DNA from: Cloeon dipterum
Lineage: Eukaryota > Arthropoda > Insecta > Ephemeroptera > Baetidae
DNA: 64,000 nucleotides
NCBI RefSeq assembly: GCF_949628265.1
Contig: NC_088789.1
Coordinates: forward strand, 248,001-312,000
Direction of reading: 5' to 3'
The notes under the pieces were generated by a model. The model was not told the DNA's origin, ran no database searches, and saw only the letters and a list, made by a program, of their open reading frames with translations. How positions within the stretch are numbered: position 1 is the first letter of the stretch; the number at the start of each line of letters is the position of its first letter. The position numbers were made by a program, and so were the translations under genes. Shown here piece by piece: positions 21,895 to 61,510 of this stretch.

Positions 21895-22744
21895 ATTTTC
21901 AAATTCGTGGATTTGGCCGGATTTGGCATACCAATGCACTTGGGCGATGTAAACAAAACACGCCCCCCTCTCCCCCACTCGGCTGGTCACGGCCGTGGCG
22001 CGAAATCTTTTAGGGGAACCAGAGGAAATAATATATTTTTCGGTTTGATGGACGCCCTTTGCAGGATTTGCAGGGCAGGCACCGGGCTACCACCTGTCAA
22101 ATTACCAAAAAATTTTAAAAATCCGGCCCCTCAACTTATTATACCATTTAAAAAATCGGCAATGTTGCGAATTTTGGCGCAAACCCAAGGCAATCGACGC
22201 GTTTCATCGCGGGTACGTGTATTTTTTAAAGTCAGAAGCCGCGCGTATCCAGTTCATTAGGTGATTTAAAAAAAAAATAGTTTTAAAATAGTGTAGATTC
22301 GTATGTGATGACGTGATGACGTCGAAACTAGTCGAGGAATAAAAAACGACGAATTATTTTGACAACACGAGGATGAAGCCTGGTTTACACACGAAAAAAG
22401 ATGTTGTGCATTACAACAATAAATTTTATTAGAGTTCCTTCATTTTCTTTTCAATCCCAAATGCATCTTTTGGATACATAAACATTTTGAGACTGATAAC
22501 TTCCTATCAGCTCTTCTCTGCTGCGTAATTTGAAGCACGTTTAAAAACGCCAACTTTGCATTGAACATTATTATAGAAGGTGGACGGACACTGATTTTGT
22601 TTTTGCCCTCAGCTTGCAACGAGGAAACCGGGGCCATGAATACCGTCGACGGTCAAGAAAATATGTCAAACATTACGCTGTTGGAGGCAAGCGATTTATT
22701 TAATCTGTCTCTGCGAGTAATTTGCTAATTTAATTCCTGAAATA

Positions 22745-22960
22745 TTTATAGGTTCCGACGGGAAGCAGAACAGGTCTTGCGTACATTTCATGCGTATCAC
22801 TGTGGGTATATGGAGCCGTGAGGCACACGGCTTTCATTATCTACTGTTTATATTAAAAGAATTTCACAGTGAAGCTCTTCCTGACTGTGTATGTAAACTT
22901 TGTGATAAGAGCATGGATTTGTACTATTTTGTGAGCTGTGATTAAAAACTAAATGAGTCT
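22745..22960 (+). mobile_element. Diverged LINE 3' fragment (C-terminal zinc-knuckle end)
   Basis: Reading 22860-22945 gives PDCVCKLCDKSMDLYYFVSC, which matches the end of the full LINE's ORF2 in this window (EDCECKFCDKPISFYHFLQC) in its Cys spacing and flanking residues. Upstream, nucleotide similarity continues to the LINE segment coding FTRHACHGFHY. The frame is broken and the copy is 5'-truncated. It is older than the copy at 24.6 kb. Confidence 0.55.
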
Positions 22961-24423: not shown

Positions 24424-24599
24424 ATATTGGCTTTCAATAAAACGTTGCAAAAACTATCCAGAAATTTTTCTTTTCTTTCAGTGATCCAGTGAGGAAATTT
24501 ATCTAAAATCCTATTTATTTGCAAATTGTTTTCTGGAAAGAGAAATTAATGAATGAACCACACCATTTTATATGATACATATTTTTCCTTGCAAAGTTC

Positions 24600-25105
24600 A
24601 GTTTCTAATTAATAAGAGCTCTCTATCCGTATTCAAATTAATGAAATCCAGGCTGACATACAAATTAGCAAACACTGATTTCTTTTTAAAAGAATTTCAA
24701 GCAAGATATTCACTGCCGGAGACTGATTCATTTAAAAATTTCATAGCTAACCAGGATTCTAAGGCCTCCGATATCGATCCGGGGTTTTTCGTCACTCCCG
24801 CCATTGTAAACCAAAATTGGAAGGGAGCTCTTTTTATTAACAGAAACATGTTCACGAGACACGCTTGTCAGCATGGTTTTCACTATTAGATCTGTAAAAA
24901 ATTGACCTATCACTCCTGCGCGAGTGCAAATTCTGTGATAAACCAATCAATTTCTACCATTTCCTTGAATGTGATAAGAACAATTAGACACTGTGCCAAG
25001 CCACCAATACAAAAACGAGCATTGATCTGTGATTTAATTATTATATCTACATATGTCTGTTGTTGTACTCCCATGGTGTCTAAAAAAGATTTCATTTCAT
25101 TTAAA
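24600..25105 (+). mobile_element. 5'-truncated copy of the macro-domain LINE
   Basis: The segment encodes SRLTYKLANTDFFLKEFQAR and PETDSFKNFIANQDSKASDI, closely matching the ORF2 C-terminus of the full element at 55.8-60.06 kb. It continues into the same 3' untranslated stretch (GTGATTTAATTATT, CTGTTGTTGTAC, GGTGTCTAA) and ends in ATTTCATTTCATTT. The reading frame breaks after HGFHY and part of the CCHC-like region is missing. 5' truncation with a short repeat tail is typical of LINE insertion. High similarity to the full copy suggests a fairly recent event. Confidence 0.85.
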
Positions 25106-25319
25106 TAATATTAAATCTATAATTTAATTTACTATTGTAACCTTTCGTGTTTTGTAAATTTATCTTAGTTTTGTTTAGTTTAGTTCATCCATAAAATATT
25201 TTTCTTTAAACGGAAGCGTTTAATCTCCCAAGCGAATATTTGAATTTCTCTTACTAACAAATATTTAAAACCAAATACCATTAATGAACGCAATATCACC
25301 TTTTGGGAGTTTCCTACTG

Positions 25320-53822: not shown

Positions 53823-55750
53823 CTGTGGACAAAATTTCATTCATTAGTCTCGACAATGCCTGTGAATTAATTAAATATTTTAAAATATATGAGAACGGAG
53901 AACAGCGAGATCGCCTGAATTGGCAGAGATAGGCAACCTGTGGGACACAACCGACTAAACGGTTGCATACCTATTTTTATTTGGCAATACAAAACAATCA
54001 ATTAAAAAACCCCAATAAATATAGGAAAAACATATAATTCACAAAATGCAAATACAATACATGTTTCTATGTTTCCCGCACCCTTTTGCCTCGTTTGAAA
54101 CGTGTGTTCATCCCGTGCGTCGACAAAGAGAGGAGGGAAAAAAGTGCAGATTACAGCGCAGAGTGCGATTCCTCTTGGTGCTTGATGCTCGAGCCTCTCT
54201 CAACAGAGGGAACGTGCGCAAAAAAAGTGGAAATATCGGTTCGCTTAATGGAGATAAAAGCAAATGAAGGGTTTTATTGCCCCGGGATGCGGGATGCGCG
54301 ACAATAAACACGCGCGGCAGCTGCCGGCGCGTTGATGAAAAAAGAGCGAGTTAATGGCCCACGCGCCGAAATGAAAATTATCACTATTATTGCTTTATGG
54401 CACCGAGCACTTTGCATTTCGCCACAACTGCCTTCAATTTCAACGGAATTCGGGCCGGTAGTTTTAATGTTCGGCAAGATTACTCGCCATATTTCACGCG
54501 ACTCTGATGATTTATTTTCTGCTTTTACAGTAATTAACACAGCCGCGGCTTTACGTTCCAAATCGGGTATGAATCGAAATTTCACGCCGAACCAGTTGGA
54601 ACAGTACTGAAATATTTCAAGTGGGATCGATGCATGGTGACAGTTAAAATTTGTTGGATTCAATAAACAATTGGTTTTACAATCATAAAGGACCTTGCTC
54701 AAATTTTCTAATTTTCTCCAAAATTTGCAGCGTTTGACCACATTTTCTTAACAGATTTTGATTCCTCTCTTTGTTGTAAAATAAAAATAGGATATCAAGT
54801 GAAGAGACAGTCCTCACCATTTGAAAATCCACTTTTCGAAAAAAACTTACTGTTCTGCTTAGATTAATTTTGGCTTGAAATAATTAGTTTGAGCATTTCC
54901 AGGATTGAAGATCGTAATTTTTCAACCGTTTTAGACACTTAAAAGTGACGGTATAACAAATGTCAAGAAAAAAATGGTGCATTATGTGAAATAAAAAGTG
55001 CGGCTTCATCTGGAAGCGGCGGGCGAGCGAGCCAGCTTTAGAGCACTCGTAGAACAAATTACAATTTCCATTTGCGCGACAGGCAGCACTCGAGTCGGGA
55101 CATAAATCCGGGTTGTGCCTCTGGGCGCACTGAAATTACATTTTTGCGCGGCCATATGGTCTAGGAAATTGCGAAAAGAGCGCAGGTTTTGCGAAAGGAG
55201 TAATAAATGCGCGCGTGCGTTGCCGCCGCCGAGGAGGTTGGGAAGCCGGAAAAAAGGAGTGCTAGTCAGTCAGCCTGCAGCTTGTTTCTCTTTCTCGGCC
55301 GAAAATTAAATTATGGAAAGCGAGCCGCTTGTTGGCGCCGACCCGCTCCGAATTTCAACTAACTACCACACTCGAAAATTTGCTTACTGTTCTCTCTGCA
55401 AGTACAGACCAGAGAGACGAATTCCTATTTTATTTTAGAGCTGGCGTAACTAAAAAAATTAAACGAATTCACCAGTTGCGTAAATCCTACAATTTATTAT
55501 TAATGAATTATTCTGAGCTTCCAATCGTTTCGGGACCATTGAATTATTTTAAAACCGTCTAAATTGTCTCTTAGCTCAAGGAAAAGTGCTTAGCATTTCT
55601 TGGGAAATTTTTCTTATGGTTTATTGTCTAGCGGAATTTTTCGGTTCAATAAATAAGAGGGGCAGAGCGCCAGGTAAGAAGCGGTCACGTTGCGAAGCAG
55701 CTGCAGTTTTCTTACCTTTTTCCCCGGATTTTGGAATTGTTTCAGTTCAC
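53823..55750. other. DDR intron sequence 5' of the last visible exon
   Basis: Contains repeat G1 copy 4 (54690-54905). A less AT-rich stretch at 54100-54600 has no supported exon. The DDR exon coding the middle of the discoidin domain was looked for and not found. Confidence 0.45.
54690..54905 (+). repeat. Dispersed repeat G1, copy 4 (diverged)
   Basis: TTTTGATTCCTCTCTTTGTT, then ATCAAGTGAAGAGACAGTCC and TGAGCATTTCCAGG, follow the landmark order of copy 1. It is the most diverged copy. Confidence 0.45.
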
Positions 55751-55914
55751 TGTCGGGCCCAGGAGGGCCGCGAAGTGTCTCCTCAACCCTGTATTGAGAC
55801 ATTTCGTCCCTGGACCCGATTTTCAAAGCGAAATCTGACAAATTCCTGCAGAAAAATCACTGTTTTCTGACGTCAGCCGGCCAGAGGGAGCAGCGCAGCT
55901 GCCACCTAAAGGTG

Positions 55915-57138
55915 ATGTCGCCGAACTCAGGGACCAACTCGCGGCGTAGAGGCGGGCAACAGGGTAGCCCAAGGACCTATTCAGCGGCCACGGCAGCCAC
56001 CATGCGCCTGCCAAGAGACTTTGCACCTAGCAAACCGCCCCCACGTGCCGGCGCGTCCGGCACGTTCGGCCGCATGCAAACTGCTAACCCAGAAGACGGA
56101 CCAGTAGAGTCTCTGCGAGCCATCATCCAGAGGTACGACAAACTACTAGAGGCTGCAGACAACCGGGAGAGGCATTACGAGAGACTCCTTGAAGCCGCCG
56201 ACTCACGCGAGAAAAGGCTCGAGGAAAGACTTTCGCGCACGGAGGCGGCGCTGGAAACGGCCCTGGCACGCAACCCACCACAGCCCCGCGCGCGGGCCCA
56301 ACGCCCTCCGTGGCGCAAATTCCCTGAGCTGACGCCGGGCACTGACACCCCACTGACAAACGACTACCTGGAGAGCAGAAAAAGGCTTGCAGAGGGCAAA
56401 GGTCCCAGCAAAGCAAAAAAGAGTAAGCTTTCCTTTGTAGAAAAAGAGGCCAATCTGTTTTCAGCCCAGGAAGGCGTCATCGTGCAAGCGATCTCGGCAG
56501 ACCGACGCTGCGAGCTCGGAGTTGCCGGTCAGTGTGCAGCGCGGTTCGGGAAACCACCAGCAACCTCAGAGCCAGTCCAGATTGGTGACGTCATCGTCCA
56601 AGAGGCGGGTGACCTTGGAAGGCTGCTCAGCCTGGTGACCAAGCAAGCCGCACCGCATAAGCTTAGGAAGAAGCCGGAGGCCTTTCTCGAAAGCACCCAC
56701 GTGGCCTTCGACAAATTTGCCCAATATCTGGCAGAAAACAACATCAAGAAGTTCGCTATGCCGCGCATCTGCGCCGGACTCGATGGACTCTCGTGGGACT
56801 GGGTCAAGGAGCAACTCCAAAGGCGCTGCCAGTCCATGCCATACAAGATCGAAGCCCATGTCTACCATCTCCCTTCGAGGAAGAGCAAGCAATCGGCGTC
56901 CCAGACCGCCTCTAAACTCAACCCAAACGATGAGGCCCAGCCTCTCGGCGAGCATCTGCTCGAGGACGAGAACGAAGCGGAAGTGGAGGCGACAACCGAC
57001 TATGACGATGCAATGGAGGAGAGTGCCGATGATGACGAAGAAGTGCGACCAGGGCCCTCAAGAGCCCCTGACAAGCCTGGCAAGAGGCCGATGACGAGGC
57101 AGGCAGCTGCCAATAAGGCTAAGTTATCAAATTTCTAA
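55915..57138 (+). CDS. LINE ORF1 protein with coiled coil and TARG1-like macro domain
   Basis: 407 aa from the ATG at 55915 (an in-frame GTG precedes it). Residues 1-60 are basic and low-complexity. Residues 64-119 are a coiled coil with two similar heptad units (YDKLLEAADNRERHYERLLE, AADSREKRLEERL). Residues about 172-319 are a macro domain: VIVQAISADRRCELGVAGQC, LLSLVTKQAAPHK, FDKFAQYLAENNIKKFAMPR and ICAGLDGLSWDWVKEQLQRR, ending IEAHVYHL. In human TARG1/OARD1 the same stretches read CISEDCRMGAGIAV, YLITKKRASHKPTY and MPRIGCGLDRLQWENV, where Lys84 and Asp125 remove ADP-ribose; here they are Lys243 and Asp290. The C-terminus is acidic (EDENEAEVEATTDYDDAMEE), then basic. No CCHC knuckle or RRM is seen. 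ORF1 proteins bind element RNA; a role in clearing ADP-ribose marks is inferred. It ends 29 bp before ORF2. Confidence 0.85.
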   Translation: MSPNSGTNSRRRGGQQGSPRTYSAATAATMRLPRDFAPSKPPPRAGASGTFGRMQTANPEDGPVESLRAIIQRYDKLLEAADNRERHYERLLEAADSREKRLEERLSRTEAALETALARNPPQPRARAQRPPWRKFPELTPGTDTPLTNDYLESRKRLAEGKGPSKAKKSKLSFVEKEANLFSAQEGVIVQAISADRRCELGVAGQCAARFGKPPATSEPVQIGDVIVQEAGDLGRLLSLVTKQAAPHKLRKKPEAFLESTHVAFDKFAQYLAENNIKKFAMPRICAGLDGLSWDWVKEQLQRRCQSMPYKIEAHVYHLPSRKSKQSASQTASKLNPNDEAQPLGEHLLEDENEAEVEATTDYDDAMEESADDDEEVRPGPSRAPDKPGKRPMTRQAAANKAKLSNF

Positions 57139-57167
57139 ATCCCCCCAAAATCGATTCCTTAAAAGTT

Positions 57168-59999
57168 ATGCTGTGGAATGCAGAGGGTCTCAGAAATGTG
57201 ATCAACTTAATTGACGACAAATTTATTTCTAAATTCGATGTACTTATTTTTACTGAGACATTTTTGCTGAAAAACCTCTCGATAAGGGGATATTATTGCA
57301 AACATAAATTAGGTTCTAGAGCCAACAGAGGGCGGCCTATGCGGGGTTTGTCGATTTACTACGGGCCGAGATTGGGGGTTTTAATTGACTGTCATGAGCT
57401 CAGAAACTTTTTAATTTTGAACTTCTCCGGTTTCACAATTGTGGCCACATATTTAAATCCAGAATTACAGTCTGCAGACATTTGGGATGAATTAATAGAA
57501 ACTTTGCAATTCATTAAAAATGCTGATAGAGTAATTTTTGCAGGCGACTTTAATTGTAGGTTAGACAAAAAGTGCAACAAAGGAGAAGTAATTTACGACT
57601 TTCTTAGCCTTAATAATCTCCACCTTGCCAACACCTTTCCTCTGCAAAATACTTATGTTTGCGCCAATGGAGCTAGTGTAATTGATTTAATTCTCTGTGG
57701 CCAGTCAGTTAAATGCACTGAATTTTTATTAATTGATACTTTTTTTAGAAAGCATAGCATGGTCTGTTCAATTTTGGAGGTGCCTAAGTCGGGAGAAAAT
57801 AGTTTAAAAGCTGCCACCCAAATTAAGTATAAATTAGATCACGATTTACTAGAAAACTTCCTCTTAAGTTATAAAATAATTCTAAAAGCTGATTTGCACA
57901 ATGAGGACCTTGATAATTTTTATAATAATATTTTACAACTAGTTGAACGTTCTAGGATAACAGCGCCAGGTGAAAGGGGCAGGCTGAGTCGGCCTTGGTT
58001 TGACTCAGAGTGCTTTATCTTTCGCCAAGATCTCACATTTTTGAGAGCGCTAGCGGGGTCCTCATTGTTAGGGGATGGAACTCAAGAGGAAAGGAATGAA
58101 ATTTTAAAAATATTTCTGAAAGCAAAAGGAGAGTATCGAAGATTGTGTAACAGGAAAAAATCTGAATTCCAAGAAAAACACGACCAAAGAATTTTAGGCG
58201 AGGCGGAGGAGAATTGTTACAGGTTTCTGAGGTTGAATGGTCGAAATCTCAATTACGTGGCCAACGATGTCAATCTGGACACATGGACACAGTATTTGGG
58301 AGAGCTATTCAACGTCAGAGATTTGGGGCAGAACGACAGCCTTGGCCTGAAATCTCTGTTGGAAAAATACCCCAGGAGCAAAAATGTTAATTATTTCATG
58401 AAAGAGGAAGTAGACCTAGCTATAAAAAATATGAAGAACAAAAAAGCTCCTGGTCCGGACAATTTGTCTAACGAGACACTCAAATTCTTGTGGCTGGTTG
58501 TTCCGGACGAGATACTGTCTTTCCTGAATGGCTGTCTCGGGCTGGGTAAGTTCCCAACAGCTTGGAGAACGTCCAGTTTGAGGCTGCTGTATAAGGGAAA
58601 GGGCAGTGTCTCGGACGTGAATAACTATAGAGGCATTAGTTTGTGTTGCTCGCTCTACAATTTGATGGACAGGGTGTTAAATAATCGCCTCTATTCACAT
58701 TTAATTGACTCCATCCCTGAAAATCAGTATGGTTTTGTTAAAGGCAAGTCAACAATTCATGCTATAAAAATGCTAATTAAAGAGATAAATTTGAACGTGT
58801 ATGAGCGCAAAATGCCTCTCTATGCTCTTTTCTTGGACGTTCGAAAGGCTTTCGACTCGATTGACAGGAAATCCATTTTTGGTAGATTGTTAAATTCTAG
58901 GAAATTGGCGTTTGAGGAGATCAATTTGATAGCTCAAATGCTGGACCTAAATTTTCTAGTCGTCCAGGATGGAGTTTCGATGTCGGAGCCGATTGTCCAA
59001 TCGAACGGAGTTCGGCAGGGTGGCAGCATATCTCCATTTCTCTTTATATATTCAATCTCCGATATAAATGCACTCTTACAGACCTTCCCAAATGTCAAAT
59101 TAATCATGTTCGCCGATGATCTTGTTCTGCTCTCAAACTGCTTGGAGGAATTAAAAAATTTCATGGCCAATTTAATCGACTATTTAGCGGATAAAGAGCT
59201 CAAATTAAATTTTTCAAAATGCAGCATACTCAAGTTTAGAAACAAGGGAAGAGGGAGGCTGAAGCAAACCGACAAATTAGTAGTGAGAAATGAGGTCGTC
59301 GATTTCGTCACCGAATTTACCTATTTAGGAGTAACGTTTCAGTCTTCCGGAATTTCTTTTTCTAAACATATTGAGAAAAAAGTGAGAGCATCAATTTTAG
59401 CCACCTCCGAACTGAACTCTCTCCCTAGATCATCAGTCAGCACTGCTTTGAAACTTTTCAATCTTGCAATAGCTCCAATCGCAAGCTACGGAATAGAGGC
59501 AATTTGGCCATTTTTAAGTCTCAAAGACTTTAATAAATTAGAATCCTCCAAATCAAGATTCCTAAAAAGAGCTCTATCTGTATCTAAGTTAACTAAATCC
59601 AGGCTGACATATAAATTAGCAGACACTGAATTTTTTGTAAAAGAGTTGTTAACAAGATATTCACTGCCGGAGACTGACTCATTTAAAAAGTTCATAGCTA
59701 ACCAGGACTTTAAGGCCTCCGAAATCGACCCGGGGTTTTTCGTCACCCCCGCCATGGTCAACCAAAGTTGGAAGGGAGCCCTTTTTAATAACAGACACAT
59801 GTTCACGAGACACGCTTGTCACGGTTTTCACTATTTTATTTGTAAAAAATTGACCTACCACTCCTGCGCGAGTGAGGACTGTGAGTGCAAATTCTGTGAT
59901 AAACCAATCAGTTTCTACCATTTCCTCCAATGTGATAAGAACACTTTGACACTGTGCCAAGCCGCCAAAGCAAAGACTAGCAATGAACCTGTGATTTAA
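57168..59999 (+). CDS. LINE ORF2: APE endonuclease and reverse transcriptase
   Basis: 943 aa starting MLWNAEGLRNVINLIDDKFI. Residues 1-210 are an exonuclease/endonuclease/phosphatase domain: WNAEGL, IFTETF (catalytic Glu), IFAGDFNCRLD, SVIDLILC and FRKHSMVCSI, which nicks the target. The reverse transcriptase spans roughly 400-700: KAPGPDNLSNETLKF, LRLLYKGKGSVSDVNNYRGI, YGFVKGKSTIHAI, YALFLDVRKAFDSIDR, NGVRQGGSISPFLF and the catalytic LIMFADDLVLLS, then KLNFSKCSILKF and FTYLGVTF. The C-terminus has a Cys/His cluster (CASEDCECKFCDKPISFYHF, LQCDKN) like the zinc knuckles of other LINEs. The length is within the usual range and there are no interruptions. It would perform target-primed reverse transcription. 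The Met at 57168 is the first in frame and directly precedes the endonuclease motif. Confidence 0.95.
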   Translation: MLWNAEGLRNVINLIDDKFISKFDVLIFTETFLLKNLSIRGYYCKHKLGSRANRGRPMRGLSIYYGPRLGVLIDCHELRNFLILNFSGFTIVATYLNPELQSADIWDELIETLQFIKNADRVIFAGDFNCRLDKKCNKGEVIYDFLSLNNLHLANTFPLQNTYVCANGASVIDLILCGQSVKCTEFLLIDTFFRKHSMVCSILEVPKSGENSLKAATQIKYKLDHDLLENFLLSYKIILKADLHNEDLDNFYNNILQLVERSRITAPGERGRLSRPWFDSECFIFRQDLTFLRALAGSSLLGDGTQEERNEILKIFLKAKGEYRRLCNRKKSEFQEKHDQRILGEAEENCYRFLRLNGRNLNYVANDVNLDTWTQYLGELFNVRDLGQNDSLGLKSLLEKYPRSKNVNYFMKEEVDLAIKNMKNKKAPGPDNLSNETLKFLWLVVPDEILSFLNGCLGLGKFPTAWRTSSLRLLYKGKGSVSDVNNYRGISLCCSLYNLMDRVLNNRLYSHLIDSIPENQYGFVKGKSTIHAIKMLIKEINLNVYERKMPLYALFLDVRKAFDSIDRKSIFGRLLNSRKLAFEEINLIAQMLDLNFLVVQDGVSMSEPIVQSNGVRQGGSISPFLFIYSISDINALLQTFPNVKLIMFADDLVLLSNCLEELKNFMANLIDYLADKELKLNFSKCSILKFRNKGRGRLKQTDKLVVRNEVVDFVTEFTYLGVTFQSSGISFSKHIEKKVRASILATSELNSLPRSSVSTALKLFNLAIAPIASYGIEAIWPFLSLKDFNKLESSKSRFLKRALSVSKLTKSRLTYKLADTEFFVKELLTRYSLPETDSFKKFIANQDFKASEIDPGFFVTPAMVNQSWKGALFNNRHMFTRHACHGFHYFICKKLTYHSCASEDCECKFCDKPISFYHFLQCDKNTLTLCQAAKAKTSNEPVI

Positions 60000-60825
60000 T
60001 TATTGTATATGCCTGTTGTTGTACACCCGTGGTGTCTAATAAATATTTCATTCATTCATAAATTTTTGAACAGATTTTCATTAAACGTATCAAGACAAAT
60101 TAAATTAGTCACTCTTTATATCATCAAATCGTGAATTTAGTACAGTTTCTCCACAAAATGCTGATTATTTAAAAATTATGGAACAAAATAGTCAGATTTT
60201 TGGTAGAAATGATTTTAACTTTATTATGATTAATTCTGAAACTAAAAACGTGTTATTTTATCTGAAACAGTACCAATAAAAACGTATTATTTTTTTATTA
60301 ATTATAAAAAAGGAATTAATAATTAATTGATTTATTTTTGTATCAGGATAAATCTGATTATAATATCAATGATAAACACACGAGCATAAATTTTAATACT
60401 AAATTTAAAAAAAACTTCTGTTCCTCCCTCGCTGTGAATTTACGGATGTGTGTTTATCTCATGTGTGTGCGAGTTTGAGCGCGCGGCGGAACAATCTGGC
60501 TAATCTGGAGAAGCGAACACTCGAGACGCGCACGTTTACTTATTTCCTCGCGGATGGGAAGCTGTGCTTTGCTTTCTCTCCCTCTCTGCGGCTCAGTGGC
60601 GAATGTAAACTATAGCCGACTTGTTTCCTCGCGCCGAGAGGAACCTTATTCCTCGCGGCGAGCGTTAAATTTGCGGTTTCGGGCGAATATATGTCTGCTG
60701 TTCTCTGCAAAGCCGCTTGATTAACAATTCTGCACAGAGAATTTAGCCCCGTGTCTTACGCTGAAAATTTAAATTATCAATATAATTTTAAATAATATAT
60801 ATATTTATAACAAATGACTTCTGCC

Positions 60826-61510
60826 CCTTGGGTCCGTTTGGGCAGAAATTAACCCAAAAGCCCAAATTAAGCGTCGGCACCGGCAAAACCACTAAAAACA
60901 GTCCTCAGGTCGCGCAACCTGAGGAAGGTCGGTGACAAGCAATGGCCAAAAATCGTCACCAAATTTGCTCGAAATTAGTGGAAAAAGCATTTAAAAATGG
61001 CCTCTGGGATCTCAGGTCATGGGGTGCCCTGAAAAAGGTCGTTAGGGTACCCCAGGTCAAAGCACCGTGCAAGACCTGTCCAAAGAGGGATCATGGTCGA
61101 CGATGGGATGAACGGCCGAATTTTATAAAAAATTAAACCATTTTTGCCCGTTAAGCCTAAAAACCGTACAAAATTAATTAAAATTTTTCTGAGTGCGAAA
61201 AATCTAAAAATTGGTTTCCAGACCGGCGGCGAACACGTGCAAAAAAGTAAATAAAGCCCTTAAAATTTTCTTGGTGAAGTAAAAAATCGCTTATTTTCGA
61301 TTTTCCATGTTATCTTTATGGAAAGAGTGCAAAAACACGTTTTTCAAAGTTAAAAATCTATTTATTCCTAGGAGTTTGATCGGATCGGATCGTATTTGGT
61401 CTTAAAATGATCCCAGATAAATTTTGCTAAAAATAGAATAAAAATGAATTGAATTGAATAAAGAGCCATTTTTTCGAATTTTTATTGGACCGGAGGTATA
61501 ACCAGCGGAA
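60826..61510 (+). repeat. Dispersed repeat R1, second copy
   Basis: Matches the eIF2-alpha intron copy on the opposite strand. It has the same hairpin core (TGGGGTGCCCT at 61020-61030, AGGGTACCCCA at 61044-61054) and a second exact stem-loop at 60903-60924 (CCTCAGGT, CGCGCA loop, ACCTGAGG). The right end has GAATTGAATTGAATAAAGAG and GGAGGTATAACCAGCGG. The ORF 60942-61136 is not credible as a gene. Confidence 0.65.

Follow-up and report, generated by a model that had tools for sequence, protein, structure and literature searches.

What would a macro domain resembling an ADP-ribosyl hydrolase do inside ORF1 of a LINE? The question is raised by an element of Cloeon dipterum found in the stretch of 64,000 nucleotides analysed here (the window; G000:C4:248001-312000), and it was followed through a genome of 190 Mb in 10 contigs. 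The element at 55657-60055 is a LINE, i.e. an APE-endonuclease non-LTR retrotransposon, as a sequence-only reading of the locus had held: it combines a reverse transcriptase carrying the catalytic FADD (ORF2 residue 648) with an APE-type endonuclease, conserved ends and target site duplications, and it has no LTRs, the longest direct repeat within 55000-61000 being 23 bases among the repeats listed. ORF1 and ORF2 are both open and are separated by 29 bases (Table 1). The 5′ end is also common to a copy at C2:36.24 Mb, and the position of the 3′ end is given to within a few bases in the CATT tail. The listing of open reading frames starts ORF1 at GTG 55912, which gives 408 aa, and the numbering in that frame is that of the sequence-only reading plus one.

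Table 1. Features of the LINE copy, in positions of the window
Feature	Position	Strand	Remarks
Full-length LINE copy	55657..60055	+	ends common to the copies at G000:C5:29.91 Mb and C5:1.59 Mb
5′ UTR, starts GAGGGGCAGAGCG	55657..55914	+	258 bases; common to 4 copies including that of the window
ORF1, 407 aa from ATG	55915..57138	+	stop 57138
Coiled-coil helix (predicted)	56101..56271	+	residues 64-120, 408-aa frame
TARG1-like macro domain	56422..56880	+	sequence and profile matches
Lys codon at the TARG1 Lys84 position	56641..56643	+	AAG; Lys243
Asp codon at the TARG1 Asp125 position	56782..56784	+	GAT; Asp290
Acidic C-terminal stretch of ORF1	56959..57045	+	read from sequence
ORF2, 943 aa, endonuclease and reverse transcriptase	57168..59999	+	
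Endonuclease part of ORF2, PF14529	57435..57716	+	E 1.6e-7, above cut-off
Reverse transcriptase domain RVT_1, PF00078	58617..59339	+	E 1.4e-33
3′ end with AATAAATATTTCATTCATT	60036..60055	+	common to two copies, divergence beyond

The window-type LINE moved recently, as indicated by a second copy (C5:29.91 Mb) that differs from it by 2 mismatches across the 5′ 2980 bases, is 99.2% identical over the last 1.5 kb, and is flanked by an 11-base target duplication, ATAATTGAAGT, read by eye. The third copy (G000:C5:1587400-1592000; L003, L054), which carries stops in ORF2, is 98.1% identical to the window over the 5′ 2981 bases and 90.8% identical over the last 1.5 kb, and is by these values a mosaic; its duplication, again by eye, is ATATTAAAAAAT. 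The duplications of these two copies are thus 11-12 bases long, with a few extra bases between them and the 5′ end of the element, and that of the window copy is short and unclear. In the fourth copy (C2:36.24 Mb), likeness to the window ends at 56572 within the stretch read. The window also holds ORF2 remnants of related elements at 22721-22942 and 24557-25109, the latter being 84% identical in DNA to copies 2 and 3 at their 3′ ends.

A coiled coil had likewise been claimed for ORF1, and the helix predicted for it (Table 1) is modelled from the single sequence with a block mean pLDDT of 91-96 over residues 71-120. A heptad scan of the ORF1s backs the assignment suggestively only, the shuffles being those of an already chosen best window; the shuffles equalled that window in 84/1000 (L007) and 60/1000 (L021), and in L007, L028 and L039 the best window is not N-terminal of the macro domain.

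For the macro domain itself, phmmer aligns residues 171-314 of the window ORF1 with human C6orf130/TARG1 (E 3.1e-5), Lys243 and Asp290 falling at ITK(84) and GLD(125) of TARG1, and identity across the domain is 24%. The Pfam Macro model, proposed as a check, returns 18.6 bits (E 0.0018), below its curated cut-off of 22, and Pfam alone would therefore miss the domain; at E ≤ 0.1 it matches 5/28 ORF1/macro rows, and single-sequence structure models of the domain reach mean pLDDT values of only 40 and 51. What settles the homology is a profile built on 12 ORF1 rows, all of families A-D and none of E, F or the unlinked loci, which among PDB sequences matches TARG1 at E 2.6e-20 and DarG at 1e-8. 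Widening the profile by E rows, F rows and L035, which is unlinked, gives 8e-36, a value not relied on here. The ORF1 families A (that of the window) to E are our own grouping, from trees and lengths; TARG1 is the top PDB match for one tested representative in each of the five, with values of 0.0022 for B, 5.4e-10 for C, 8.6e-7 for D and 2.8e-24 for E. By sequence homology the ORF1 domain is confirmed as a TARG1-like (ALC1-like) macro domain, as the sequence-only reading had it.

The second PDB molecule after TARG1 is entered as 'Appr-1-p processing domain protein' (5m31/5m3e), which we take to be DarG, and NCBIfam DarG is also matched (7e-6). An identity as DarG antitoxin was rejected: the NCBIfam equivalog cut-off is missed (25.5 versus 250 bits), and the adjoining ORF is a LINE ORF2 and not a DarT toxin. 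The ORF1 domain shares with DarG the Lys, the only member of the catalytic dyad that DarG retains according to the excerpted text of a review (PMC7050489).

The domain aligns with TARG1 end to end, and both codons assigned to the catalytic pair are present in the window and aligned with it. This pair is named Lys84/Asp125 in the available text of PMC9411070, and the portion seen of the review PMC7050489 prints Glu125. In the genome, Lys occupies the first position in 50/50 frames covering it (AAG 40, AAA 10) and Asp the second in 45/49 (GAC 27, GAT 18), the other 4/49 having Glu (L007, L012 and L013, which are one B lineage, and L040, for which no ORF2 was found); the counts take in stand-alone (F) rows, unlinked rows and duplicates. 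Free variation of the catalytic residues, which would have told against the sequence-only reading, is thus not what the relatives display. Over 43 distinct domain rows, counting only columns that 70% or more of the rows cover, Gly203, Gly225, Lys244 and Pro255 (408-aa numbering) are invariant, and Asp291 in the same numbering stands at 92%. There are also departures from TARG1: at the Asp20 position the window copy has Asn, as do the B rows that span it and some rows of C and E; in place of Gly123, family C has Lys and family D has Ser; and identity to the human protein is 15-26% in families A-D and 34-40% in E. Unlike human TARG1, moreover, the domain sits inside a LINE ORF1, in the window after the coiled coil.

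In a rival view of its function, the macro domain would be a reader or nucleic-acid clamp that replaces RRM/CCHC, binds ADP-ribose, PAR or RNA, and tethers the RNP to PARP-marked breaks. Pfam finds neither an RRM nor a CCHC match in the window ORF1, the loop glycine beside the Asp is gone in C and D, and macro domains comprise both readers and erasers (PMC7050489, in part). A pure reader, however, need not retain the Lys nucleophile in every frame and the Asp in nearly all, and the glycine is retained in A, B, E and F, so that we regard this function as rather unlikely, if well worth keeping in mind.

How widely is the arrangement distributed? The window ORF1 matches 49 genome places at E ≤ 0.001 (all 66 first-look candidates scored), and all 49 were read (1.5-kb flanks were included for 30 loci, and the others were read as 9 stretches of ∼9 kb and 10 of 0.9-3.9 kb), together with the 7 Pfam-Macro places in the genome, among which ORF2 was found beside L034 only. 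The macro profile matches 52 loci (54 frames), namely 49/49 ORF1 places and 3/7 Pfam-Macro places (L032, L034, L035). Same-strand ORF2-like sequence lies downstream in 34/52 (33/49 plus L034). None was found at the other 18, which take in all nine loci of F, L035, L032, a truncated copy of family A and some stretches not long enough to reveal one; L008/L009, L010/L011 and L043/L044 are near-identical duplicates. Pairs of ORF1 and ORF2 with both frames open occur in families A, B, D and E. Family C has ORF1s mostly of about 570-620 aa, and the ORF2 read in that family (L047) is split across two frames. Several LINE lineages of this genome accordingly have a macro-domain ORF1, and a one-copy host capture is ruled out by the 49 matches, the ORF2-linked loci and the two ORF2 clades described below. 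Thirteen of the 49 ORF1 matches, mostly C and D, cluster at G000:C2:36.2-37.2 Mb, near the contig end (37.46 Mb).

Besides the LINEs, the genome contains a stand-alone family, F (L030, L038, L059, L060, L061, L065, L066, L067 and L068, at G000:C5:23.15-23.99 Mb and C3:35.1-36.0 Mb), with at least nine copies of a TARG1-like ORF of ∼190 aa (MSRQE...GEYQKYL...) related to the LINE ORF1 domain. No adjoining LINE ORF2 was found at the F loci, 4/9 of whose stretches (L059, L060, L067, L068) are too short to tell, and these genes may be donors of the domain or copies of it that were domesticated. Two further loci, L035/L069 (G000:C2:24889824) and L032 (G000:C1:41238006), have a TARG1/macro ORF and no adjoining ORF2 match; L035, at 41% identity to human TARG1, may be the host orthologue.

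Trees were built for the reverse transcriptase and for the macro domain. The former (37/120 listed proteins, carrying no clade labels; a later tree minus 7 long or odd rows) place A+B and C+D+E in two clades, with an AU p of 2.45e-51 against their union, and in the ORF2 tree E is sister to D (support 100/99). The macro trees (24 locus rows of 52 loci plus human TARG1; a later tree minus L032, L013 and L042) group A-D with F at 99/96, and A-D without F at only 61/47; E falls outside this group, with no resolved order among E, L035 and human TARG1. With the macro domain the AU test rejects D+E (p 0.008), C+D+E (p 0.0135) and a clade of all LINE rows (p 0.026), on a tree with long branches and for groups chosen after the first versions of both trees. 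A single origin of the LINE macro domains, inherited with ORF2, was rejected as the simple account, as ORF2 joins D and E and the macro tree does not. Judged from these trees, the macro domain has moved between elements; the simplest reading would be that a single ancient macro-ORF1 crossed between LINE clades and that family E probably gained or replaced its domain separately, and rate differences could mimic part of the pattern. Within family C, L018 and L021 are 92-100% identical in nucleotides past residue 272 and 52-72% before it (blocks of ∼30 codons), and since the break comes directly after the macro domain, the N-terminus and macro domain seem to have been swapped as a cassette.

Selection on the domain was followed by dN/dS, counted by the method of Nei and Gojobori, many pairs being saturated and giving no value. 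In six C pairs (dS 0.45-1.0) the macro domain has a dN/dS of 0.12-0.14 versus 0.47-0.60 for the rest of ORF1, and further C pairs give macro values of 0.14 (L016/L018), 0.08 (L020/L025), 0.08 (L020/L027, dS near 2) and 0.19 (L025/L027). Between the window and L003 the values are 0.06 for the macro domain and 0.12 for the rest. Three pairs run against the trend, L005/L006 (0.64 versus 0.40), L021/L026 of family C (0.51 versus 0.38) and L039/L042 (1.08 versus 0.86; L042 is broken), and all three rest on few or decayed sites. Most of the informative pairs therefore point to purifying selection that is stronger on the macro domain than on the rest of ORF1, these three being the exceptions. Such selection, the five ORF1 families and the two ORF2 clades contradict the notion of a passive hitch-hiker, a functionless piece of host TARG1 captured by one element; the genome does offer TARG1-like ORF without an adjoining LINE ORF2 match (L035, L069), and we nonetheless consider this notion highly improbable.

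Taken together, the element is a LINE whose ORF1 joins an N-terminal coiled coil to a TARG1-type macro domain that is most likely a working mono-ADP-ribosyl hydrolase (probability about 0.6). The hydrolase reading draws on the A-D profile match to TARG1, the Lys and Asp counts and the low macro dN/dS. It is weakened by the 24% identity to TARG1, the change of Asp20 to Asn, the loss of Gly123 in C and D, the Glu in 4/49 frames, and the three pairs in which macro dN/dS exceeds that of the rest of ORF1. In the portions available of the cited papers, TARG1 takes ADP-ribose off proteins, nucleic acid ends and thymidine (PMC7050489, PMC8501950), its Lys84 reacts with the distal ribose and ADP-ribose esters are hydrolysed (PMC9411070, PMC8501950, PMC7050489), and the K84A mutant gives no rescue of DarT toxicity (PMC7050489, PMC8501950). 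By the proposed mechanism, ORF1p would oligomerise through its coiled coil on the element RNA, which would place many hydrolase domains on each RNP; Lys243 would attack the ribose C1″, Asp290 would resolve the lysyl-ADP-ribose, as proposed for TARG1, and ADP-ribose added by host PARP-like enzymes would be stripped off the RNP, off the ends of its RNA or off the DNA nicked for insertion. We infer the catalytic activity and its substrate, as well as any gain for the element and any action against host PARPs.

The same activity might instead be host-friendly, the eraser clearing PARP signalling at insertion nicks so as to limit damage or speed repair, and not countering defence. TARG1 acts in DNA-damage responses and guards against toxic DNA ADP-ribosylation, according to the parts seen of PMC8501950 and PMC7050489, and the stand-alone macro genes akin to the ORF1 domain are under selection (L030/L038 dN/dS 0.13). 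Exchange between elements, however, fits conflict at least equally, and we think such a role improbable. A broader and tentative proposal, on which we would not bet at even odds, is that an insect-lineage guild of LINEs uses its own ADP-ribosyl hydrolase against PARP-type restriction, with at least two ORF1 entries, two distant clades and the shuffling of the macro domain as a cassette that is expected of an arms race; the stand-alone relatives may be domesticated copies or donors.

Among parasite-encoded ADP-ribose erasers are the viral macro domains of alphavirus, coronavirus and HEV, which counter host ADP-ribosylation (PMC7232374, in excerpt), although here the top PDB match is TARG1 and alphavirus nsP3 is matched at E 0.004 only. 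The ORF1s of the Jockey superfamily, modular and reticulate, with RRM, CCHC, PHD, esterase and coiled coil, resemble those studied here in their coiled coil and in module exchange among elements; the word 'macro' is absent from the main text of PMC4120745 (Metcalfe and Casane 2014). Precedent for capture of an enzyme domain by insect LINEs comes from a viral SF1 helicase in ORF1/ORF2 (PMC5563155, in part), whereas the domain here resembles a cellular ADP-ribose eraser; 'macro' is likewise absent from the text of PMC5563155.

Beyond this genome, a weak search of a protein database with ORF1 and the A-D alignment (∼8000 word-sharing candidates scored each) gave no ORF1 relatives in other species at E 0.01. 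Viral contigs gave no match with ORF2 or with two ORF1s, and prokaryote genome contigs gave four remote reverse transcriptase matches, with no macro domain in the stretches around them. Relatives of ORF2 are also present in public contigs, the nearest named ones being Cloeon dipterum proteins P0001, P0005, P0015 and P0029 (54-64% identity). The ORF1-ORF2 pairs that the sequence-only reading would have sought among arthropods are many in this genome, and these limited searches found no ORF1 relatives elsewhere. Among the matches listed from the open PMC library, no title or start of an abstract mentions LINE ORF1 proteins with a macro domain, and we provisionally regard the domain as a new LINE ORF1 module.

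Nucleic-acid ADP-ribosylation is known in vitro, and its cellular targets are unsettled. Rack et al. speculate, in the part of their review available, that RNA ADP-ribosylation may aid recognition of transposon-derived RNA (PMC7050489). The macro domain would extend the list of known ORF1 modules by an enzyme, and the findings on it suggest passage of ORF1 between LINE clades. Transposons that retain a conserved eraser would point to ADP-ribose marking as something that matters to them.
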